Shown here in pieces: positions 1 to 57,440 of a DNA stretch of 64,000 bases; the stretch's first letter is position 1, and each line of letters starts with the position of its first letter. The position numbers and the translations under genes are program-made. The notes beneath the pieces were generated by a model, which ran no database searches, was not told the origin of the DNA, and saw only the letters and a list, made by a program, of their open reading frames with translations. Source of the DNA: Heterobilharzia americana (Eukaryota; Platyhelminthes; Trematoda; Strigeidida; Schistosomatidae); assembly GCA_944470555.2 (NCBI GenBank), contig OX104127.1, forward strand, positions 128,961,113-129,025,112. Reading direction: 5' to 3'.

Positions 1-1406
1 AAAACGTTGCTGCTGGTATTATTGAGATGCTCTGCAATAGTACAACGACCAAAAGATAAACTAACTAGGTTAGTTCTTTTTTGCTTTGTTTATGAATTCA
101 AGATTTTTCTTGCTGTGAGTTTCATCAGTAGTTACTGTGAAAAATCTACTTTACATCCTCTTGTTAAGAGTATATATAACTGCATATTACTCACTGTAGA
201 GACCATATTAATCAATTACCTTCTGTCAATTAACATGCTTTCATAACCTTACCACAAACTACTAGACACCTGGCAGTTTCACCAATAGAAGCCATCCCTA
301 TTCCACCTAAACACCTAAAATATATGTTTGAAGAAAATTAGGTACAACCATTACTACCTCCTTGACTAGGAACTCTATGGTACCAGGCCCCTTTGAATTG
401 TGAACTACTGCTGTTTGTAAATCCCCTTGCATTGCTTAGTCTTGAAATGTATCACACTCATTTATTCTAGTATTCATGAATTTTTAAATTGATCTACCAT
501 TTCTGCCAGATTAGATCTTTTTACGTAGAATAATAAGCCGAAGATTATCTGAAACATGATGTGTATGAAAGCTATATATTTCAAAAATTCCGATTACATA
601 TAAATATGTCAAATGATTTGTGTGCTAATTCATTGTCAAGGTTATCATTTTAGAGAGCATTAAGTTGAACAACAATGTACAAAACACAACTCAGAGCTAT
701 ACAAAAAAAAATTGCATCATATCTCATTGTGTTTATCAATTTACATGTCAGTGAAGATAGATATTCGATGGGTGGAGAAATTATGATACGCAGCTAAGAA
801 TGGCTGAAAATCTGCCTAAATGGGATTTTATTTTACATGACTTCAGATAATCCGATGAGTGATGAAAAAATCTATTCTCGTCTATCAGAAAAAGCACAGG
901 CTAGAAACAAATGATAGGGGTTGATTTAAAGCAACCCTTAAAATTTTGCATAAAGGTAATCAGAGATGAGTGCTTTGATGTCTCAAAGTTCTAGTCACCT
1001 GTAAATTTAAACCCCTTTTATATATTTGAAAATAATTTGTATTCACTTTTAACTTAGCGTGTTGGTATAGATTTCAACTTTCTCATTGTGTTTTAGATTT
1101 CAGGTTTTCCTGTATTTCTTCTACTCTTATTATTCCTCTTACTCTTATGCCGTCTTTTAGTTGAATTGACCTTTTGTAAATCTTCATATATGTCATTTTG
1201 GAAGTTAGTCTATGACCAAATTCTTCGGAATCTAAATCGCTAATACATAATATGATTTGCGTGGTTTTCGTCTTCTCAATACGCTGACCAAATTTATCAA
1301 GTAAACTAATCCCTTTAAATGCTACCTACGTAATTATAAAACCATGTACTCACCAAAATTTAAGCGTAAAAGTTTTCACAACATTCAGTTTTCGTTTTAA
1401 TCATAC
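1..1406. other. Non-coding AT-rich stretch with one dispersed repeat
   Basis: No convincing coding exon or RNA gene is visible. The only structure noticed is at about 500-605, which aligns with 5570-5690 in the same orientation. Both contain a block reading roughly cgtag(a/t)ataataag followed by a purine-rich run and ttatctga. This suggests a decayed dispersed repeat. The first 55 bases are open in one frame, but too little is present to call an exon. Confidence 0.5.
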
Positions 1407-2840: not shown

Positions 2841-3529
2841 TTATTAACAAATGTGAGTGACTTTAAACACAAACATTTAAAATTTAATGTCTAAAGAGAT
2901 GAAAAATGGCCCAATATTATTGGGAGCTTCAAGCTTGCGTAATTTAGCACTCATTAAATGTTTCATCTTTAGTAAAGTTTAATTTAAAACCCGTAGCCGC
3001 GGGCATATAGTGGTTAATTATAACAAGTTAGTTGATTTCTGAATAAATCTAAAAAGCTTCCATCTTTTTGAATTCAATACTCTTGCTATTGTCTAGAAAA
3101 ATTATAGCTAAAAGACCATCGGATTTTGAAAATGAAAAACTATCATAGAAATTTACACTACATTTTCATCAAGAAATAGACCTTCGTAATAGAATATACC
3201 AATTTCTATGCCTAAATATTGTGTTCTAAATATTTGATTTGCATGAAGAATCATAAACTTCTGCACTTATCATACAATTAAGGCCTGGGAAGGATTAATT
3301 CAAGTTATTTTGACTACAATAAATCAATAGAAACAGATTTCTGTCTAGGAAAAATGAAATTATAATAAACTTATTCTTAAACATAGCACGGGATCAGTAC
3401 ACTTCTGTGGTCTTAGCAGCGAATAAGGGCCGCAAATAGAAGATTTAGTGGTTTCATTTCTATGTCATTTGCATCGGAAATGCTAAAATAAAGCTCTTCA
3501 AAACAAGTGTGACTTAAAGTTGCTATTCA

Positions 3530-3715
3530 TCACAAACTGACAGGAGTTGCGGAACCACTAAAAAACTGACAGAACCGGATAGCTATTTAGTTCTAGCGTT
3601 GAACTCTTATGTAGTACATACCTACGACCACACTCACGGCTTAATGAAGGGTCATGAGGCTTCACGGTAAGCATATTACCACTGATTCTTCGAGCTGAAG
3701 TTCAACGGTCCCTAC
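3530..3715 (-). repeat. Family B tRNA/hammerhead repeat, diverged minus arm
   Basis: This stretch aligns end to end with the better-preserved minus-strand copy at 20495-20695. Shared blocks, as read on the plus strand, include ctgaca..agttg..gaac, the (t/g)catga.gct(t/c)cacg.. region over the B box, and ttaccactga at the A box. It is heavily mutated and its hammerhead core is not recoverable. It lies about 170 bp from a plus-strand copy of the same family, in head-to-head orientation, as at 12.5 kb and 20.6 kb. Confidence 0.55.
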
Positions 3716-3884
3716 AAACCTCTAAACTGAACTATTCTCCAATACTCAATAGTGTCGTGGTGACATGCTTTGGAATGGGATTTCCAGAAGTTCTAATAAT
3801 AAGTCTTGGCTAGCGGAGATAACCAAATTGATGGTGAGGACAAATATTAGACGATGTCATTGGAAAATGTCACTATATATGCAA

Positions 3885-4110
3885 GTTGATAAAAGTGGAA
3901 AAGTCCACACCACTGGATTCCGAATCGGTGACTCAGTGTTCATGTGCTCGTTGAGAAATCAGAAAGTCAAAGATTCCTTGCCTTGTACTGTCACGAGTGA
4001 ACACTGCCAAAGAGTCTCATACTAGGACGAACAGGATGCCTAATGCTTTCAGGTTTTCAATGGTTCTCTAACGGATATCAATCCAGGAGGAATACCAACC
4101 TGAACTCAAT
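3885..4110 (+). repeat. Family B tRNA/hammerhead repeat, diverged plus arm
   Basis: It shares ccactggattccga.tcggtg with the copy at 12718 and continues with the same tail order: gagtctcatactaggacga over hammerhead stem II, then a ggttttcaatg block and a tail like the one seen at 12890. The CUGANGA strand is lost (aagagtctc) and the second core strand has decayed to CGAACA, so the ribozyme is dead. It pairs with the minus-strand copy at 3530-3715. Confidence 0.65.
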
Positions 4111-12439: not shown

Positions 12440-12655
12440 TCAGACCAGATAAAGTTAATTTTCATGGACTGACTTCAGTTGGAGGAACACTGGAAACTTG
12501 GGAGCACTGGAGAGCCGTTCCATCCCATTGTAGGACTCCCCGACAGTGCGAACCGGTGACCTCGCTCCGCCTCACCAGGGACCGAATCCAGGACCGTCAG
12601 CTTCCGTGTCCAGCACGTTATCAATGAGTCACTAGGTAGCCGTGAGTACAACCAC
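12440..12655 (-). repeat. Family B tRNA/hammerhead repeat, minus arm
   Basis: In reverse orientation it shows a tRNA-like head (ends near 12650) with a B-box-like ccaggaccgtcagcttccg region, then the hammerhead position. Stem I strands GCACUG and CAGUGC are both present and complementary. The first core strand has decayed from CUGANGA to UCGGGGA and the second from GAAA to GGAA, so it should not cleave. Together with 12690-12945 it makes a head-to-head pair separated by about 40 bp. Confidence 0.75.
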
Positions 12656-12689
12656 TCAGCGATGACATTAGGTGATGGTAGCACTATGT

Positions 12690-12945
12690 CGTGAACTGAC
12701 AGAAGTTGGAAGTATGAACCACTGGATTCCGACCCGGTGGCTCAATGATGATGTGCTGCACACGGAACCTAAAGGTCCTGTTTTCAATCCCTGGTGGGGC
12801 TGAGCGAGGTCATGCGTGCAGACTTCTGACGAGTCCCATACTGGGACGAAACGGCTGTCCAGTACTCTCGGGTTTCCAATGCTCCTCCAAATGATGTCCA
12901 ACCATGATGAATACTAACTTGAAAAATTTCTAAATCCCCACAAAC
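12690..12945 (+). repeat. Family B tRNA/hammerhead repeat, plus arm
   Basis: Order of parts: a ccactggattccgacccggt head containing an A-box-like ggtggctcaatgatg; a B-box-like gttttcaatccctgg; the hammerhead at 12818-12865; and the tail ctcgggtttccaatgctcc, ending near a run of C (aaaccccc). Smα has the same order (tRNA head, hammerhead, tail), but its flanking sequence differs, so this is a sister family rather than an Smα copy. Confidence 0.75.
12818..12865 (+). ncRNA. Hammerhead ribozyme motif, core intact, stem I weak
   Basis: CUGACGA lies at 12826-12832, then stem II GUCCC/GGGAC (12833-12837 with 12843-12847), then GAAA at 12848-12851. A two-pair stem III (A12851-U12858, C12852-G12857) follows, and the cleavage-site triplet GUC ends at 12859. 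All invariant core positions I can check are present. The stem I strands (gacutu-like 5' side, CAGUAC 3' side) pair poorly, so activity is doubtful. Type I topology. Confidence 0.7.
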
Positions 12946-15116
12946 CCCCAAATTCCAAAGCTATTTTTGTCTCGACTCAGTATGATAATGAGGCCGAAGG
13001 CAGTTGTAATATGAAATAAAGATACGGGTGTTTTTAAAAGAAATACTAACCGCCCGCGTAAAGATCATGTTTCTATTCAGATCACTGATCATATAAAAGT
13101 AAAACATAGGCACTGTGGTAGAGCATAATTCCATTTTAGATTAATTTATATGATTTGCCATAATAATGATAGCAAATAGTAATATATCACTATGTACTAT
13201 ATCAAATAAACTCATATGATATGGGTCTCGTTTTTGTTCATTTTCTGTCATTTAACAGACAACTTAGGCTATTAAGCGTATCATCTAAGTTCTACAGGCT
13301 AGATGTATCGTTTGTTAGTAGACTGTAGATTGCAGTATGAGAAAAACGGTACAACTTGACATATTGTGTACATTTTACTATATCTCTTGTCTCCAGAAGA
13401 AAATCCTATGGAATGCTAAATTTACTAAATATTATGTAAAAATTCTGTCTCTTCAAATGAGTCTTGAAAACACCATATGGTGGAGAGAACTAGCCGTTGT
13501 TATCACGCTCTGGAACATCTAACAGAAATAATTTGGATTTCTTATGTAGTATAACCTTAAAATCGGCTGATTTTGAGCACACAAGATAACATCTCTTTAA
13601 AAAATACTTCATGACACCAGTTTAAAAAATGCACGTTAAAGTTACTGCAAGCTGAGAAAGAAATGTATCCATTTCGTACATTGTAAATTAGTCGACAAAC
13701 TGTTCGTGACCACAGTATTTTTATATCGCTTGGGGTTCAAAAAATGCAGTGAAAAAAAAATAAATTTTTGCATTTCATTATATCTACTCAGTCACACCTG
13801 CATGCGTTGGAATATCTTTCTAAACACTCTGAAAATGCCTGTATTTCATTAAAAAAAACAGTAAACACTTTCAGTTAACATAGCTGGAAAAGTATGGATC
13901 GAAATCAACTAAATATTTCATTTATTGTATAAAAAATTGTTGACCAACATAATTAATGTCATGCTTCATAATTAAAATTTTCTTGACTGTCACAGACCCA
14001 CACAGTCAAGTGAAACACTATTTTCACTTAAAACTGGGCCTTTAGCTTAAAGTTTATTAAACATAGTGCTGAACAGCTGTCATAGTGACCAACCAAATGT
14101 TAATATTCTAAATCCTTTTTCGAAAAGCTTCGTAGCTACGTCTGACCATTAGAACTTCCACAGAAAATAATATATAAGTGGTGTGAACAGAGATTTAAAA
14201 ACCAATAGGCTATTGCCTTATGTCAAGTCTAAATACACTATTTTATAGACAGGCTGATAAAATGCAGACTATGACTCTCAGACTGTGTGATGGTTCAAGT
14301 CACTACTTTTGTGAGTGGATCACAATACTCGTGCTCAGAAAAAGCAGGTTGGTGGAATATAAACACAACTATGTATGATTAGTGTCTAAGGAGGTATTCA
14401 AACGAGAGGTACCAAGTTTCATGCAGATTGATTACATAGTGAATTGTTTATTTTACAAAATGAAGCTTTTAGTATGAAAGAATGATTTCCTCGAAATGAA
14501 GATAAATATACATTATATTTCAAAAGTAAATAAAGACAGTGTAAATACGAATGTTTATTCGACAGGAATTTACTGTCGACTATTTGCATTGTAATAGGAA
14601 ACTTTTAACAGAAACGTGATGGTAAAATTATCTTCAATAAACACTTGACTAACCGTATTTTTTTAAAGATGTTTGTTCACAAACTGTAATCAGCATATAA
14701 AATCCCCATTGTTAAAAATCGCTTTTTGTCTATAACCAATCCCCTTAGTAATTATGAACTATTCGACGCTGACAAGTGCTTAGCATTTTGGCTCTTGCAT
14801 CAATGAAACCTGGATTTGAGTCTCATTTTAAAAAAGGGTGATACAATCGAAAGCAAATAGATATGGTCGATGACTACCGAGAATGAAAGTCACTAAATAA
14901 CGCAAAGTACCATTCAGCCTTCAGATAATGGAATCCATCTATATTACCAAAACCAAATTATCCTCTCAGTGTTTTGTTTTGTTATGGAATAATTACTTAC
15001 TAAATCATACCGAGCGAAAACTGATACCATGTTGTGAACCATTTATATTACCAGTTGACTGTCTGAGATAACCGTAGTTTGGCAAACTAGTATTTACACT
15101 AGGTAGTGGTTGGAGG
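12946..15116. other. No gene seen
   Basis: AT-rich and closed. Two weak B-box-like spots (ggttcaagtc at 14290, tggatttgagtctc at 14810) might be old tRNA-like SINE heads but lack a convincing A box. The open frame at 13337-13522 has no splice support. Confidence 0.4.
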
Positions 15117-20490: not shown

Positions 20491-20494
20491 ATTT

Positions 20495-20695
20495 TCAGAC
20501 CTTATTTCAAGTTGTTATTCATCGTAGACTGACATCAGTTGGAGGAACAAAGGAAACCTGGGAGCACTGGACAGCTGTTTCGTCCTAGTATGGGACTCCT
20601 CAGCAGTGCGCGCACACGACCCCGCCAGGGATCGAACCCGTGACCCTCAGGTTCCGTAACCAGCACTTTACCACTGAGCCACCTGTTCAGAATCC
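20495..20695 (-). repeat. Family B tRNA/hammerhead repeat, minus arm, well preserved
   Basis: In reverse: a tRNA-like head with A box gtggctcagtggtaaagtgc and B box gggttcgatccctgg, then an intact hammerhead, then the tail ggtttcctttgttcctcc. It is nearly identical to the plus-strand arm at 20697-20935, and only a few bases separate the two heads. This makes a long inverted repeat with arms near 200 bp. The low divergence between arms points to a relatively young dimer or to sequence exchange between arms. Confidence 0.85.
20564..20609 (-). ncRNA. Hammerhead ribozyme, intact core
   Basis: Read 5'-3' on the minus strand: stem I strand GCACUG (20609-20604), core CUGAGGA (20603-20597), stem II GUCC/GGAC (20596-20593 with 20585-20582), GAAA (20581-20578), a short stem III with an AGCU loop, the triplet GUC ending at 20570, and stem I partner CAGUGC (20569-20564). 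Every conserved element of a type I hammerhead is present. Stem I is six perfect pairs. Stem III is only two pairs, as in published schistosome ribozymes. Confidence 0.85.
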
Positions 20696-20696
20696 A

Positions 20697-20935
20697 ATGC
20701 TCTATATTTCCAACTGACTCAATGGTAACGTGCCAGCCAAGGAACCCGAGGGTCGCAGGTTCAATCCCTGGCGGGGTTGTGAGTGTGCACTGCTGGAGAG
20801 TCCCATACTAGGACGAAACAGCTGTCCAGTGCTCCCAGGTTTCCTTTGTTCTTCCAACTGATGTCAGTCCACGATGAGTAACAACTTGAAGTATTTCCAG
20901 ATCCCCACAACTCCCTCAAAATTCAATTTCAGATC
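20697..20935 (+). repeat. Family B tRNA/hammerhead repeat, plus arm
   Basis: tRNA-like head with B box caggttcaatccctgg at about 20757-20772, a hammerhead position at 20787-20832, and the tail ggtttcctttgttcttcc, then acaacttgaag and a C-rich end (gatccccacaac). It is the mirror partner of 20495-20695. Confidence 0.85.
20787..20832 (+). ncRNA. Hammerhead ribozyme with mutated core
   Basis: Stem I GCACUG (20787-20792)/CAGUGC (20827-20832), stem II GUCC/GGAC, GAAA (20815-20818) and GUC ending at 20826 are all intact. The first core strand reads CUGGAGA (20793-20799) instead of CUGANGA, replacing the invariant A6 by G. This should abolish or strongly reduce cleavage, in contrast to the mirror copy at 20564-20609. 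Confidence 0.8.
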
Positions 20936-25214: not shown

Positions 25215-25390
25215 TAGTTGCAGGCTACGAGAAAGAAACCCTGAAATGAATTTTCGTGCTTCTTGGCACTCGTCAACAAAGCGTATCTGCAACCTCGAGG
25301 GAAATGATGTCCCTTTTGAAATCAGAACTCACACCATTCAGCGTTGAAATCAGGAACATTACCAACGAGCTATTTGGGCACCGATTTACC
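25215..25390 (-). repeat. tRNA-like SINE, family C, minus strand
   Basis: The reverse complement starts with an A-box-like agctcgttggtaatg, followed by a decayed B box and then a diagnostic body: gaggttgcagatacgctt, gacgagtgccaagaagcac and a gggtttc end. It follows the same order as the family member at 57185-57440 (ggggttgcagatacagctt, gcgttccaacaagcat, agggcttcctcc). Confidence 0.65.
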
Positions 25391-26329
25391 AGCTAAACGA
25401 ATGACTAATCATAAAAGATGTATCTTTACCTGTGTAATCCCGGCGTAGTATATTAGAACAAATAATAAAACAAACAAATACTTTGTATTATTCCTCAAGG
25501 TTTCGATCTTGTTAGGAAGACTTTTTTCAAGAGTATGAATCTGACATTAAGTTTTTAGGTTGATGTTCAAGAATGTGGTGACCTTTACGATCATCCAGTT
25601 ACGTCGTTATATGGAGCAAAGACCAATGTAATACAGGTGAGCGAATCAGCAAATCAGTCAGAGGAGCTTTTTTCAGTTGTATGAGTAAGGTGGGAAAAAA
25701 TACGGTGGGGAAATTTAGTTCGACTATGAAAAGTACAATGTCAGTCCTCAGGGGTGAGAAAGAATAGATTTCTAGTTTGGAAGAACGAATATTCGAACAT
25801 CATACAGCATATATCAAATAAATAATAAAATTTATAACGACAAATGTACTTTGATAACAGTTGAAGTATGAGTGATAACAAAATGGACTATGTAATATAT
25901 AAAATGGTTCATAGAATGTATATAACTTAGAAAGGAGAGTAAAATTGATGAAAATAGATCAATAAAGTGTTGTGTAGTAGACCAGACAAGCTGTTAAAAT
26001 ACAACCAATATTTTTTTGATGTGATTAAGACGATTAAGCGAAATAACACCGGGAACTATTCAAGCAAGAGTAAATTCGGAATAAATCAAGTGAAAAGAAA
26101 CTTTGTTCACTTCATATATTATTTACGAATGCCTAGGCGAGTCATTAATTTTTGCCATATTTGTGGGATGTCTAACCCATCTTTACTGTTGACCGAAGAA
26201 GGGTGCGAACTGATGTGCAAAGGTCATGCAATGGCCTGCTCTTTGTGAGAAAGAAAACCCTTTTACAGGACCTTTGTCTTTTTGAATGATATTCTATGGT
26301 CTGAACATAAAGTATAAGCCGCAAAGACG

Positions 26330-27760
26330 CAGCTTACTTCAAGTTTTTCCAGATAACAGGAATTTTTGGTGGTTTCTTGCAACTTCGACCGTGCTCAAAT
26401 AGACCTGTTAGTTCTTGACGCGATATCTCTCCAATGTATGTGACATCGCATTCACGACAGTCTACTTTAAAAACACAGTTCTGTTGTTCCAAATGAGGAA
26501 TCGGATCTTGTAATTTACACAGGTGTGAGTGTAATGTGTTCGTCACCTTAAAGAATACTCCTATGTTGTAACTATTGTAATTTTGATGTTCCATAAGGAA
26601 GTTCTATAGTACTTATTCAATCTTTATGGCTTGGTTTTTCCCATGTGTTTTTTCGACAAAGTATTTTCTATCTTTCTCAATAGCTTTTCCAGAGAGTTAT
26701 TTTGTTTTAAGACTTCCTAAACAAGTTGTCTATCTGCTTGCTGAGATTCCACTCCATTTGGTATCCTTTATGATCTCGTCAACAGATTTTTACCAACATT
26801 TAACTTAGTTTCCAACTGATGAGTCGAATCGAAATCAAGGTACTTGTTAGAATATGTATCTTTTCAACAGACATCAATATCCAGGGTCCCATCACTGTTT
26901 CGTATAGCCTTGCAGTCTAGGAAAGCTAGCATTCCAAATTCTGTTTCTGGTTCATATATGAATTTTATAGAATTAAAACGTCTGTTAAGATATTTGAAAG
27001 GATTTTCTAGACCTTGGTTTTTTGGTTATGACGAATGTGTCGTCAACGTACCTCCACCGTATTCTTGATTTTAGATCATGTTGGCTAAGTAGGTCTGATT
27101 CTAATTTGTCCATGTATAGATTAGCTACAATGGGTGAGGAGGGTGAACCCATTCCTAACCCACTGGTCTGACGATAAAGGTTTCCTTGAAAAGTAAAAGA
27201 GGTTGAGGTCAAACATAATCTCGGTACATCACAGAGTTCACTGATGGAAATATTGAATCTAAGTTATAAAGAAGTATCCAACTCTAATAAACGTCTAACA
27301 ACTTGTATGCTTTCGTCAGTCACAATATACGTACACAGAAAAACAACGTCAAACCTAACCATTGTTTTATTATCTTCATTGGTTGTTTCTAATAATTTAT
27401 GTTTGAAGTCTAATGAATTTCTCTAATATTTACGAAGTTGTCTTATAATGGCTTAAGGACTTCTGAAAGGTTATATGTTCAGGAATTATTAAAATCCACA
27501 GTTGGACGGATCGGAAAATTGGGTTTATGAATTTTGGGAAGGCCATAGAAGCGTGAAGTGGCATAACTTTTTGATGCTGAATTAAACCACGAGGCATTGT
27601 CCAATTTCGATTTCAAATCGTATAGCAATTTGTTAACCTGTAGTCGTACCTTATTAAGTGCAGGCTTACGCTTCTCGTTTTCTATCATTTCATAATGTCC
27701 ACTGGATAAGTGCTCTGTGACCTTTTTTTCATAGTCTGATGAATAGATTATATGCACTGG
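26330..27760 (-). mobile_element. Penelope-like element: reverse transcriptase plus GIY-YIG endonuclease
   Basis: Read on the minus strand, three open blocks carry the PLE signature. 27757-27479 ends in SRFYGLPKIHKPNFPIRPTV. 27212-26985 has YRQTSGLGMGSPSSPIVANL and the catalytic RWRYVDDTFVITKKP. 26594-26334 has the zinc-finger-like CVFKVDCRECDVTYIGE, which is the start of the GIY-YIG endonuclease, and a following EHGRSCKK. Stops and frame changes interrupt every block, and the C-terminus after the endonuclease is missing. PLEs use this single protein for target-primed insertion. It is the most readable PLE in the window, but not functional. Confidence 0.92.
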
Positions 27761-30335: not shown

Positions 30336-30764
30336 TTGAGGTAACAAAGTCATCTACTAGCACCAAACTACGGTCACAATGGAATCCGTGAGCACATAGA
30401 GACTAATTTCTGAGCTAGTTACAAGTGACATTAATAGCAGAGTGATAATGTCGTCGATTACTTCAACAACATAAAATGCCATGTGATTTCGATGAACTTG
30501 AACTGAAGGTAGTCTACAGACTGTAGGAAGACAGAAATGAATAAGTACCCTAGATAAAGAGGCAACATCTGACTACTTCACTCTACTTGCCGTTTACTTA
30601 CTGCTTGCATAAACTCATAATCTTATATTTTAGAAACCTCCCAAATCATTTGGTATGAGCAGCAGCTCAGTTTTCATGATGAGAACTCAGATATCGAATG
30701 AGTAACAGTTCATTCTAGGTCTCACTAACATACAAAATTAGTATTTAATATAGTTATGCATGGT

Positions 30765-30925
30765 AATGATAAGCAGTGGCCAACAGTGGAATCCAGGATG
30801 CGCATTTCGTCCTACCTGGGGCTCGTCAGCTAGATGTACCTGCCTCCCAGTGAATGATGTTGTTCCCACCCGGACTTGGACTCGGGAGTCATCGCTTCAA
30901 ACGCGAGAGCATTATCCACAAATCG
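30765..30925 (-). repeat. Smα-like tRNA/hammerhead repeat
   Basis: Reverse reading: a decayed tRNA-like head with a B-box-like cgagtccaagtccgg, then gggaacaacatcattcac, the hammerhead, and a tail (cctggattccactgttggcc). The element matches the copies at 52.0 and 53.4-53.8 kb. A second, poorer copy lies 280 bp away in the opposite orientation (31205-31390). Confidence 0.88.
30791..30835 (-). ncRNA. Smα hammerhead ribozyme, core intact
   Basis: Minus strand: stem I AUCUAG (30835-30830) pairs with CUGGAU (30796-30791), with one G-U pair. The core CUGACGA is at 30829-30823 and GAAA at 30808-30805. Stem III has a U-A second pair with a GCGC loop, and the cleavage triplet AUC ends at 30797. Stem II (GCCC/GGAC) has one C-A mismatch at its second pair. 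Likely active but weakened. Confidence 0.8.
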
Positions 30926-31204
30926 AACAGATCAGAATTGTCAAACTCAGACTTGGATCAATAAACCGCTTAGAAATTAGGAAGTTCAAACTAATCCCTG
31001 AATTAAATATCAACAGCTGAGTAAACAGCTGTGAAAATCTCTTACATTCTCGGTGCACAAAATGTATGAAAAGATACTCAATGGGACATAGGTTATGTTG
31101 TCAACATTGAAACAACCTCTCACATACGAAGAACAAAATGGTCGAACAGTTAGACCCAGCATAATAATGAGAAAGCGCAAGTGGTAGTGAATAATAACAA
31201 GAGG

Positions 31205-31390
31205 TGACTCTCGTACCCCAGAGGTTTAATAGATAACGTTTTGTCATTTGAAGCGTTAGGTAATGAATTTGTATTCCAGTGGGAACAACATCCCCCGTGG
31301 TGAAGGAACATTCAAATGACGAGTCCCAAATGGGAAAAAAGGCGTGTCCCGGATCCCACTGCCAATCGCCAAGTAGATTACAAATGCGAA
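31205..31390 (+). repeat. Smα-like repeat with dead hammerhead
   Basis: The head is decayed. cagtgggaacaacatc at 31277 matches the linker of other copies. The hammerhead region reads aaatgacgagtcccaaatgg followed by gaaaaaaggcg, so the first core C is lost, stem II cannot close and the GAAA strand is blurred. The tail gtcccggatcccactgcc identifies the family. Confidence 0.75.
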
Positions 31391-43960: not shown

Positions 43961-44245
43961 ACCCGATCGATTTTGATCAACCCACCTAGTTTATTAGTTC
44001 ACTAGTTATGAGCCGGTCCAAAGCCCAGATAAAGAGAAAAGGTTGGGCAGAGGGCTAGAAACCCCATCCCAGCAAACTAATCCAATCCCTAAAGAAAGTT
44101 CAAAGCACAAAGAAAATATTGGCAATAAAAGTAAACTTATTCCTCACCGGAATCTGGAAGACGAAATGACGCCAGTTGGTGAAAGCCTTTGGGAAGCTAA
44201 CTAGCCGATGTGTCTTCTCTCTCTGCACGAAAGCGAAGGTAAACA

Positions 44246-52170: not shown

Positions 52171-53429
52171 AACGTGTAATAGTTATTACTATTTATTAAT
52201 ATACTTGTCTGTCTCAGTTGTTTTGTTGGATCGAATTGTTTGACCTCTATTGGCATATGGAAAATAGCAACTATGTCAATAAATAGTAATATATAAACTG
52301 TTAGGTAGCCTCCTGCTACGTATTACTTTCTGATACTTTTAAAGCTGACATTTCCAAACATAGTAATTTTACCAAGTCCCCAAAAGTATTTTTCCGATCA
52401 AGTTTAGAACAATGAACCGGACCACCTCAATTTTTCTATGAAATTCTGAGACAATAAAGGGGACTTTAGGCTCATGAAGAAAGTAATAATTGAAAACACA
52501 GATGGAGTAAATACATATTTCCGGAAATTTCTTACTCGATTTCACAAGTATGGGGAGGCTATTCGACATAAACAAATGCTACCACTGCGTTTGGTGCAAT
52601 CAAAATATATAAATCAAAGGACAACAACAAAGGCAATTATACCAATGACAGTCATGCAAAAGCTTAACTTGTGGATCAATAAACCGGATGCAAAAATACG
52701 CTGATTATTGAAACAATATTAAAACCGCACATTTAACGTAGTTTACACAAACTGCATTTGCATTCTATGCGAGAAAAAAGTTGTCCTTCAGCCTTTGTTG
52801 CTTTTTTCCTTGTCCAATGTGTTGACTTCTTGTGTCTCTCCTTTGTTCCTGTGAAAACTATACCAACTGAATCCCAAGTTTAGTTATGATTCTTGATGAC
52901 GTCCAACTGTATACTAACTGTACATTCTTAAAACTTGCGTAACACAATCTAAGCAGTGAGTCATTACGCGAATATGAGAAGCCTACGCATATGCGTAAGA
53001 AATTACTGTTCCTCAAGAACTAGATTTAAAAATTAAGCAACTCAGCGCAAAATATTAAGTTAAAATGGAATGCAGTGATTGTGGCTGTAATAAAAAAAAT
53101 AAACAAGGATTGAAATATAATTATTCGTTCGGTGTGACCTAGAAAGAAAATTACTGAAACTGTATTTTAGTTGAAAGTCACTGTAAAGCTAGCGAAAGAA
53201 AGCCTACCTCATGTCAGTTTGCAGTTGACTATCTGCTGAAGAATTATGTACAATGCTCGAAAAATATATGTAGAAGAGAATAGGATTAAATCACTAGATG
53301 TATGATATTTGGTGTTATTGCTTGGATTATGCCGTCGTTGACTGGACCGAATTGATTGGTCTCTATTGTCATATGGGGTCCTGTGCGGATACCTCGATAT
53401 ACCTGTGTTCTAGTTATAGTAAAGATGGA

Positions 53430-53605
53430 TAGTGGCTAGCAGTAGAATCCAGGATGCGCTTTTCGCCCTATTTGGGACTCACTCGTCAGCTGGATATACC
53501 TGTCTCCTGGTGAGTGATGTTGTTTCCACCGGGATTCGGACTCGAAAGCGATCGCTCCAAACGCCAGAGCGTTATCCACCACACCACCGAGCCACGATAG
53601 CCACT
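53430..53605 (-). repeat. Smα-like tRNA/hammerhead repeat, minus
   Basis: Reverse reading: the A-box region tggctcggtggtgtggtgga, then a B box at cgagtccgaatcccggtgg, then gaaacaacatcactcacc, the hammerhead (53447-53495) and a tail. The head is the best preserved of all Smα copies here. Any internal pol III promoter would transcribe towards lower coordinates. Confidence 0.9.
53447..53495 (-). ncRNA. Smα hammerhead with a 4-nt insertion in the core
   Basis: Stem I AUCCAG (53495-53490)/CUGGAU (53452-53447) is perfect. CUGACGA (53489-53483), GAAA (53464-53461) and the triplet AUC ending at 53453 are present. Four extra bases (GUGA) sit between CUGACGA and stem II, and the second stem III pair is A-A. 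The insertion probably disrupts the catalytic fold. Confidence 0.78.
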
Positions 53606-53734
53606 TATTTATGCGACGGGTATAGTTTCAGTATTATTGCTTGTATTATACCGTCGTTGATAGGACCGAATCGATCAGTCTCAATTGGCATATAGGCTTC
53701 TGTGTGGATGCCTCGATATACATGTGTTCTAATT

Positions 53735-53830
53735 CACTCACTGGGGGGCAGGTACATCTAGCTGACGAGTCTCAAATAGGACGAAATGCGCATCCTAAAT
53801 TCCACTGCTAGCCACTATCCATCTTCACTC
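53735..53830 (+). repeat. Smα-like repeat, truncated head, plus
   Basis: It begins in the linker (tcactcactggggggcaggt) and contains the full hammerhead and the tail (ttccactgctagccactatc). The tRNA-like head is absent. It stands head-to-head with the minus copy at 53430-53605, across a repeat-unit segment. Confidence 0.85.
53756..53800 (+). ncRNA. Smα hammerhead ribozyme, core intact
   Basis: CUGACGA is at 53762-53768. Stem II G53769-C53782, U-A, C-G and U-G closes it. GAAA is at 53783-53786. Stem III has A-U and U-A pairs with a GCGC loop, and the triplet AUC ends at 53794. Stem I AUCUAG (53756-53761) against CUAAAU (53795-53800) has one C-A mismatch in six pairs. Confidence 0.82.
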
Positions 53831-56119
53831 TAATATGTGATATTTGTTTGGAGAATGGTATGAGAAAACAGTTACCTTAGTGTTTATTTTCAACCGATTC
53901 AGATAGGTATATCAGCAACTTAATAGTGTTTTTCATACTACTATGGGACTATGAGTTGCTCAAAGTCGAGGTTTGGGCATATCTTAAATCCTCTTGTGTG
54001 ACTAGAAACAAAACAACGATTTTGACTTATCATCAACGAAGCTTATGATTTAGTTCCAGCACCACTTCAAATAGTTAAGATAAAGACCTAATCTATATGC
54101 TTAAACCAATAAAATGTAAGATTATCAAGCGTAACTTAAAAACTACGTTAAAGTCTATTTCAAGAATGAAAGTCAAAAGATCCAGCAAATGAAAGATTTT
54201 GCTTTATGGACAGCCATTCATTTTCGAACCGAACAACAACGGAGAGGTGCATTGTTTGAAATCTAATAAAAACTGCTATCTTCTTTGATAATAGTTGCTT
54301 AGTTTCAATATATAAATTAAATTAACATAAATATAAAGGATTCAACAATTCTTTCTTGTTTTAGCTCTGTTCCAGCCGCTACTTTTGTGGTTAACTTGGG
54401 AGACAAACCAATGCGAAATGCAATACATAGATATTTTTCCACACCTTTATATTAAGTAGTGGTTAGCATTGAAACATGAGACATACAATCCCTCCTATCT
54501 CAAATTTGTAAGATAAATGCATCTGCAGCTCAGTAACAGAAGAGTTAAATACCAGATGTTAAAACTCTTTATATCTACACTTTGTACCACACGTAAAGAC
54601 AAGAGGTTGACTGACTCCACAAAACTTTGAGGCATTCCAAATTGAGTGGTTAGATTAAATCTATAGGGAACTATAAAATGTTGTCACATAAATCTTAGCT
54701 GCCATGGAATGATTCAGCGTATAAGTGAAGTTTATTGTTAAGTCCAAAAAGCTTGAGTTTGTTATGAATGTAGTTCAAGTCATTAAATGACAAAAAGCAC
54801 AAAAAATGAGTATAATTTGAAAATAAAACTAAAACAACTAATACAATTTACATGGAAACAATTAGAATTCTTTTGACTAAAATTTCCGAAGTCGAAATGC
54901 TGGCATTTTGAATAAGAAAATCTTTCTCTTATTTTGGTTTTGTGACTTCATCTTTCAAAGTTCGATTCATAATAGTTGATGTAAACGTTGATTTAAATTG
55001 TTAGACTGTTCAATATCAACTCACTGAAACTATCAATTTTATGAGGAACGCGTGTGTTTTGCTGTATAATTGAAATTCAGTCATGCTTAGGAAATGATCT
55101 TATGAAATTTCTTACTGACAAGTTGTAGCTTACTTCAGGAATCAATATTTCAACTCATTGGTCTATGAAATGGACGTCTTCTATCTTCACATTTTGATTT
55201 GTGCTTCTACGCGTCTCAAATAATCCTTTTCGATGGTCGACTAGTTTGTCTGAACTACCAGAGGAAATTGACTAACTTTTCCTTCATCTATTGAAGTGCG
55301 TTAAAGTGATACGGATAGTTAATCTTCATCTCATCAAGAACATTCACACTTGCAGATTGTGTTTATGGAGTATATTCAAGTAATTCGACTTACTCCAAAT
55401 GCATATTTCCATCCAAGTTTACTTGTTTGTCTCAATAACTTCAAAAAATTTCTAATATTTATCCATCGTATTTTGCCTCACTGGCATACTGGTATGAGTG
55501 GAACGCACCTTTAGAATTGGTTTTATCTTACTTCCATAATCTCATTACGTTTCTCTTATAAGTTGAGACAGTGAACTATAAACATAAGACAGAAAGGCAG
55601 GTTTTTAGTCTAGCAAGACGTACATAATTGGAAGTTTTTTGACCAATACCGCCGTTTTGCTTTTCGTATAAAACTTAGCTACTGTGTACTAAGTATAGCA
55701 AACATTTTTCCAGAGATTAAATTTTTGAAATGACCTGCAGATTTCAGGTCTGTTGTCTTGTGGAAGATGTCAACTTTCATCATTGCTGCTAATAGAACAT
55801 TTAGCTTTAAGTTTAAATTCCAATCTCTGAGTACGCATAAAGTTAAGAACTAGAAAATTAGCGCAGTTAGACTTCGAGAACGAAATATGGCAAATTAAAA
55901 ACTGAGAGCTCCTACTAAATAAATGATGATCTTGTTTTATTTCTTTTAGGCAATAAAACAAAGATGTAACAGCAAGGAAAATTTTCTTTCCGCTCATTTC
56001 ACTTGTTAAAGCCTTACAATCTTGTCTGAAATCATTGGAAACAAATAGCTGTTTACTGTTAATCAGTTGGGATGGTAATTATTACAATCCTAGGGAGTAA
56101 AATAGAAGGTTTCCAAAGA
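53831..56119. other. No gene seen
   Basis: AT-rich. The minus frame 55997-55770 begins MSGKKIFLAVTSLFYCL, which resembles a short signal peptide, but lies just downstream of a PLE fragment and has no splice support. Confidence 0.35.
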
Positions 56120-56640: not shown

Positions 56641-57184
56641 GTAAAGAGTTTTTTTTGAAACAGTCGGTAACTTTTAATATTTCTGGCATTTTTCATGCAT
56701 TAGTCCAAGAGTGATACAGTAACATTTCATCCAAAAAACCAGTAACAGTTAACATCAAAAACTGAATCAGTAGCGCATTATACATAACATGGAAATCGAC
56801 ACATAAAATAAGAGACAGAATTTTCTACTAAGAATCCATACCCTTTTATAAATGCAGTGAATATTAGCAAAGAGAATTCACTTCCTAAAAGAATTCATAA
56901 AGGAGACCGATCTCGTAGTTGATGAATTCAGTACCCCATGAAGTGACACCAACAACCACATCTGAAGTAAATATGATGACAATGTGACTATTTCAAGCAG
57001 AAATGAACTTGAAATTTAAGTAAGAAAAAACAACACAATATCAATGCATGTTACTCGCTACTTTCCTTACAAATTCTGAAGGAGATAAAAGGAAACAGTC
57101 ACGAAAGCTTTGATTTGATTTTCAAAGAGCGAATATATGTATATCAATTTTTTGTTGTCCCGTGACCAATAAATGTTAATAACC

Positions 57185-57440
57185 AAGTCCTACAGGAAGT
57201 CAAATGCGGCCGGAATAGCCCATTGGTAACGTCGCTGGCTACAACACTGGGTGACGCAGGTTCGAATTTCAGGTGGGACACCAGTCTCATCGGGGTTGCA
57301 GATACAGCTTGCTAACGCGTTCCAACAAGCATAAAACCTAGGTCCAGGGCTTCCTCCTGATTCGCACCAACCAACTAGCATCTATCGATGTGCCCTGCTA
57401 TGCTGAGCCTCCTAGCTGTCCCGCAACTAACCAGTGTAAA
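57185..57440 (+). repeat. tRNA-like SINE, family C, best copy
   Basis: It starts agtcctacaggaagt. A box: atagcccattggtaacgtc. B box: caggttcgaatttcagg, at correct spacing. The body has ggggttgcagatacagctt, gcgttccaacaagcat and ccagggcttcctcc. No hammerhead is present, unlike Smα and family B. The other members are at 25.2 (minus), 28.0 and 58.0 kb. Confidence 0.75.

Follow-up and report, generated by a model that had tools for sequence, protein, structure and literature searches.

The window, that is, the whole stretch of 64,000 nucleotides analysed here (C1:128961113-129025112, GC 35%, from an assembly of 664.9 Mb), carries short dispersed repeats of two families with hammerhead ribozymes, here called A and B. 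The presence of hammerhead SINEs together with Penelope-like sequences suggests a schistosomatid fluke. An earlier note on this DNA had described family B at three loci, each with a minus-strand copy followed by a plus-strand copy and with the heads facing each other, and this arrangement was borne out at all three by alignment to a consensus unit. The arms and borders are given below, where u stands for a position in the unit and the outer ends fall into two classes, short (S, u50-76) and long (L, u78-115), with limits that were fixed post hoc.

3514 to 3685, minus strand: family B arm of the old 3.5-kb pair, spanning u292 to u64, end S, 65% identity to the unit
3758 to 4104, plus strand: family B arm of the old 3.5-kb pair, spanning u117 to u64, from the consensus-unit alignment
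12454 to 12637, minus strand: family B arm of the 12.4-kb locus, u282 to u56, end S, from the consensus-unit alignment
12626 to 12952, plus strand: family B arm of the 12.4-kb locus, u173 to u94, end L, with a hammerhead at 12820-12865 (plus)
20492 to 20504: imperfect target duplication on the left of the 20.6-kb dimer, 10/13 positions matching the right copy by eye
20503 to 20715, minus strand: family B arm of the 20.6-kb dimer, u254 to u67, end S, with a hammerhead at 20564-20609 (minus), 47.8 bits
20710 to 20928, plus strand: family B arm of the 20.6-kb dimer, u283 to u102, end L, with a hammerhead at 20787-20832 (plus), 41.1 bits
20926 to 20938: target duplication on the right of the 20.6-kb dimer, set against 20492-20504

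The family B unit is a majority consensus of 402 nt, numbered from the hammerhead cleavage site. It holds the hammerhead core at u369-395 and, at u287-298 and u331-341, two motifs that by eye look like A and B boxes; ARAGORN, run on the window and on the consensus units of A and B, gave no tRNA. Direct partial repeats at L018, L019, L026, L030, L036, L038 and L043 indicate that the unit is circularly permuted. Copies exceeding one unit carry such repeats and reach a length of 556 nt, and at L030 two hammerheads stand in direct repeat. Twelve arms are longer than one unit (at L018, L019, L023, L026, L030, L035, L036, L038, L039, L043 and L048); nine of them end at u20-48, shortly before the cleavage site after a full turn, and three pass beyond. 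This stop may mark the 5' end of the template RNA. Folding of u1-196 (z -0.76) gave nothing special in structure. The family A unit has 315 nt and a hammerhead core of the SMalpha type. No protein encoded by either family was seen, and units of only 402 and 315 nt have no coding capacity for an RT with a GIY-YIG endonuclease. A third related family, set apart from A and B, is represented by degenerate elements at 25252-25331 (minus) and 57167-57336 (plus), which are 64% alike and have promoter-box-like heads and a decayed hammerhead.

The earlier note had put the near-identity of the arms of the 20.6-kb dimer at about 200 bp. They do form an inverted repeat, of 179 nt and 88% identity, so that the wording was somewhat generous; over the aligned core the two arms agree at 82% in this dimer, 67% at 12.4 kb and 52% at 3.5 kb. 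RF00163 reaches the Rfam gathering score at seven places in the window, of which three lie in family B arms, so that three of the six arms have a hammerhead at this level. In the alignment the hammerhead at 20787-20832 (plus) shows CUGG in place of the conserved CUGA, the base that is changed being one that the ribozyme needs. The left target duplication of the same dimer is enclosed by a 31-nt direct repeat (24/31, p<0.002). A possible L extension past 4104, seen by eye in the 3758-4104 (plus) arm, was not significant (p 0.28). When family B leaders were compared with their own 3' regions for reverse-complement similarity, p fell below 0.05 in four of five comparisons for the 12.7-kb leader, in two of five for the 20.7-kb leader and in none of five for the 3.9-kb leader (p 0.26-0.78); no argument was built on this similarity.

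The exact family B core occurs at no fewer than 5,000 places in the assembly; it had no match in the genome_contigs and viral_contigs collections. The first 100 listed places spread over 9.8 Mb (C1:0.09-9.88 Mb), and the first 45 of these were analysed as 40 stretches of 6 kb. L027 was left out since its repeat layout is the same as that of L026 and it was taken as a duplicate, which gave 39 loci in addition to the window; L001-L008 were left out as the same places as other loci, and L049 and L051 were left out of the family A scan. L026 and L027 lie about 16 kb apart on C1 and carry family B copies in identical layout at identical positions, which suggests a local duplication. The sample is biased to copies with an intact core, and it is to these that the dimer fraction applies. 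It was rare for a dimer to enter the count through both of its arms, since the exact core is found in both arms in only three of the 25 central dimers.

The pairs proved to be something other than chance neighbours, as had been suspected, and the head-to-head form is general to both families. Among family B copies with a gap of at most 100 bp in the 39 loci and the window, 37 of 42 neighbour pairs are divergent, so that head-to-head pairs are far commoner than tail-to-tail pairs (none) or tandem pairs on the same strand (five). Convergent neighbours number 16, all of them farther apart than 100 bp. A hand count of family B pairs within 600 bp at the first 100 listed exact-core places gave eight divergent, one same-strand and no convergent pair. 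In family A, 11 of 12 neighbour pairs are divergent, one is same-strand and none is convergent; a looser profile scan of this family for gaps below 400 bp gave nine divergent, two convergent and three same-strand pairs out of 14. The arms abut, with a gap of -13 to +13 in 32 of the 37 family B pairs. Single monomers do not form the majority among copies with an intact core, 25 of the 39 central copies being part of a dimer and 14 not.

Both outer ends of a pair are 3' ends, and they are typically of different classes. With both ends classified in 28 family B pairs (nine of the 37 lack a class at one end), 25 pairs are S/L, two L/L and one S/S (p 1.3e-5), the S/S exception being the old 3.5-kb pair of the window. 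The young pairs, defined as those with both arms at 85% identity or more, are S/L in all 14 classifiable cases, and the fifteenth lacks a class. Family A has 11 pairs, one of which lacks a class at one end, and each of the ten that can be classified is S/L, the ends falling at a27-45 and a132-149; the spacing between the S and L ends is about 98 nt in this family and about 35 nt in family B. Among family B segments outside divergent pairs, 14 of 36 have an S end, 10 an L end and 12 no class.

Target duplications, which the earlier note had proposed to look for, were found around dimers. Exact, flush duplications of at least 8 nt border nine of the 15 young family B dimers (8-15 nt; mismatched flanks 1.4%), two of the 22 old ones (mismatched flanks 0.9%) and two of the 11 family A pairs (mismatched flanks 1.8%); those of the young family B pairs are 80% AT. 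The dimer at L042 sits inside a copy of the Penelope-like element (PLE) family F2, with a 13-nt duplication, seen by eye, where the PLE resumes. The identities of the two arms correlate within the 37 family B pairs (r 0.82, permutation p<1e-4). The duplications around young pairs and the matched arm ages support insertion of each pair in a single event. A supposed heterodimer at L028 (0 shared and 22 unshared differences) was dropped, the differences being mainly one deletion.

In a genome dense in SINEs, with exact cores in the thousands, inverted pairs could also come from independent nested insertions, from local inverted duplication or from assembly artefacts. Such origins are extremely improbable: the close pairs favour one orientation and never take the opposite one, the duplications lie at the outer ends and the arms are matched in age. 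Moreover, the arms of a pair differ in length and end and are often 10-35% diverged from the unit.

A further proposal was that the dimer moves as a unit, a heritable foldback that is copied whole. The leaders that precede the 3.9-kb and 12.7-kb plus arms are homologous over about 84 nt, and this stretch at first resembled a spacer shared by the two dimers, in line with this proposal; that reading was dropped when the stretch was recognized as the ordinary leader of the unit. The arms are truncated independently: in all 33 family B pairs with a gap of 20 or less, their 5' ends lie 29 nt or more apart in unit position, and the two truncation points are particular to each dimer, as is the junction to each locus. 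Monomers also show S or L ends themselves. Copying of a fixed dimer is hence very unlikely, and from the independent truncation, the individual junctions and the 14 of 39 central copies outside dimers, it is most likely that the dimer is formed anew at integration. The idea of RNAs that cut at both ends was not supported either; the transcript of either strand has a single sense arm, so that only one hammerhead is able to form. The head-to-head pairs are thus real, general and informative products of an unusual integration mode.

A cDNA that folds back and copies itself, or an antisense RNA that primes itself, would also yield head-to-head pairs, and such a snap-back was proposed for PLE palindromes in the excerpted text of PMC3846280. 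The L023 dimer would suit it, since 39 private variants are common to both arms and two sites differ, from which it follows that both arms were copied from one template or from near-identical ones. Snap-back predicts equal arm starts, though, and is contradicted by the offset present in each of the 33 close pairs; it also predicts like outer ends, where S and L are observed. It can therefore be given little credence. Two outer 3' ends combined with unrelated arm starts speak against both snap-back and the copying of a fixed dimer, and they fit two cDNAs primed from the two strands of the target.

A family A dimer in the window has the same design.

53303 to 53311: left target duplication of the family A dimer, TGATATTTG, exact, 9 nt
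53315 to 53734, minus strand: family A arm with an SMalpha-type core; at 417 nt it exceeds one unit, and its end is a139 (L)
53734 to 53834, plus strand: family A arm, end a40 (S), head-to-head with the 53315-53734 arm
53838 to 53846: right target duplication of the family A dimer, TGATATTTG, exact, 9 nt

Another minus/plus pair of family A, 30764-30919 (minus) and 31197-31362 (plus), has dimer-like geometry; the spacing of 277 bp is too great, and the pair was excluded as a single insertion.

Features of this kind are on record for PLEs. In the excerpts of PMC11167929, cutting and extension by a purified PLE protein involve both strands of the target, which is AT-rich, and RT begins at two adjacent internal sites in an AC-rich start region, which account for the optional tail of 30-40 bp in PLEs. 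PLE insertions in a rotifer were described, in excerpts of PMC3846280, as inverted pLTRs lying head-to-head, of which one bears a 31-bp tail, with duplications of 8-10 bp. Three features of PLE-type integration recur here: head-to-head arms in 37 of the 42 family B neighbour pairs, a tail on one arm in 25 of 28 classified pairs of family B and 10 of 10 of family A (where it measures about 98 nt, not 30-40) and a short target duplication in young family B dimers (9/15) and in 2/11 pairs of family A.

It is thus considered probable that families A and B are non-autonomous hammerhead retroelements with circularly permuted units, inserted by a PLE enzyme through two-ended target-primed reverse transcription. 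The PLE enzyme would make staggered cuts, about 8-15 nt apart, in the two strands of an AT-rich target, and each exposed 3' end would then prime a cDNA on the element RNA, possibly a circular or multimeric one. One cDNA would start at S (about u65) and the other at L (about u100), and both would extend toward the 5' side of the unit and halt independently. Joining of the two cDNAs, in whatever manner, would leave a head-to-head pair with the 3' ends outermost and flanked by a target duplication. Start sites were alike on both strands in vitro, as far as the excerpts of PMC11167929 go, and the rule of one S and one L end per dimer, which exceeds that result, needs a separate explanation; a dimeric enzyme acting on one RNA is a guess. 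On balance, we lean slightly towards the wider claim that hammerhead SINEs of the schistosome type parasitise PLEs and that two RT start sites are each used once, one per target strand. If this is true, the S/L head-to-head dimer preserves double-strand priming of the PLE style in a form that can be read, and it supplies the link that was missing from hammerhead retrozymes to what mobilises them.

The same two-ended insertion could also be carried out by an enzyme of the LINE type. SINEs usually rely on LINEs, two-ended priming is not inherently bound to PLEs, and the sequence search, which covered two PLE families, gave no PLE partner. Twin priming by LINEs inverts the 5' part of one RNA, and this mismatches the two outer 3' ends seen here. 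Furthermore, the tail on one arm, partial tandems, the hammerhead and extension on both strands are all on record for PLEs in the excerpts of PMC11167929 and PMC3846280. A LINE-type enzyme is hence unlikely, and the PLE enzyme is preferred from the mode of insertion and not from sequence, since the tails of both sampled PLE families are unlike that of family B. The window itself holds one member of the candidate helper class.

26131 to 27751, minus strand: broken Penelope-like element, RT to GIY-YIG part, with tblastn pieces 71-83% identical to the PLE copy at L052

Neighbouring PLE RT copies within 5 kb of each other, hand-picked among the matches listed (150 scored of 8316 candidates), comprised 11 divergent, one convergent and five same-strand cases, the last five being one six-copy tandem. 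This tandem (G000:C1:50458468-50471974, minus) consists of six Penelope-like RT copies in direct repeat, spaced at a constant 2,654 bp; five of the six have open frames of 900 aa. In PLE family F2, seven of 28 fragment ends fall at 497-526, five at 555-566 and 16 elsewhere (eight of these near the end of the query), and in the F2 pair at L016 one arm ends at 555 and the other at 506. The family B tail showed no resemblance to the tails of the two PLE families sampled (p 0.46 and 0.31), and there was no significant match between family B and the pLTR of PLE F1 (p 0.37 and 0.43). The whole family B unit gave a diffuse match to a PLE F2 stretch (p 0.003), which was not upheld on restriction to the tail region (p 0.15 and 0.46). 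PLE copies beside family B copies at L053 and L060 were set aside, the right end of the PLE copy not being placed.

Families A and B have much in common with elements described before. SMalpha and Sj-alpha of Schistosoma are likewise short, dispersed, present in very high copy number and equipped with a type I hammerhead, and their promoter boxes are described as tRNA-like (excerpts of PMC2770079, PMC8490949 and PMC2576457); family A, compared with SMalpha through its published descriptions, has the typical hammerhead core. Head-to-head pairs with a short and a long end do not appear in these excerpted descriptions (PMC2770079, PMC8490949, PMC2576457). The non-LTR retrozymes of metazoans, repeats of about 150-400 nt that form partial or full direct tandems, also contain a type I hammerhead, as stated in parts of PMC7229834 and PMC7761336. 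Family B, with its unit of 402 nt, and family A, with one of 315 nt, resemble them in unit length, in copies longer than one unit and in direct partial tandems; unlike the retrozymes, most sampled family B copies are inverted pairs, and both units have heads that look promoter-box-like by eye, whereas the excerpts of the retrozyme papers report no promoters (PMC7229834, PMC7761336). PLEs were suggested as likely helpers of retrozymes in the portions seen of PMC7761336 and PMC8969392. Poseidon of Anolis and Penelope of Adineta vaga, to judge from the excerpted descriptions, share with families A and B the head-to-head arms, the tail on one arm, the partial tandems and the hammerhead, as well as an AT-rich target and an AC-rich RT start, and PLE duplications measure 8-10 bp; families A and B differ in having no protein seen and no detectable tail in common with the two sampled PLE families.

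No report linking an SMalpha-like hammerhead SINE to two-ended integration of the PLE type was found in open-licence PubMed Central, and within that literature the link is new here. It bears on two open questions, the nature of the mobiliser of hammerhead SINEs and retrozymes and the course of PLE integration in vivo. The short copies number thousands, and since their ends and target duplications can be read, they provide a large in vivo record of the integration mode.

Two weak SECIS-like matches, similar to each other, were also observed. One, of 27.5 bits, lies at 44158-44216 (plus) in the window beside a LINE-like frame and the other, of 28.1 bits, at 1230-1295 (minus) in L050; neither reaches the gathering score of 35, and they are probably part of a repeat.
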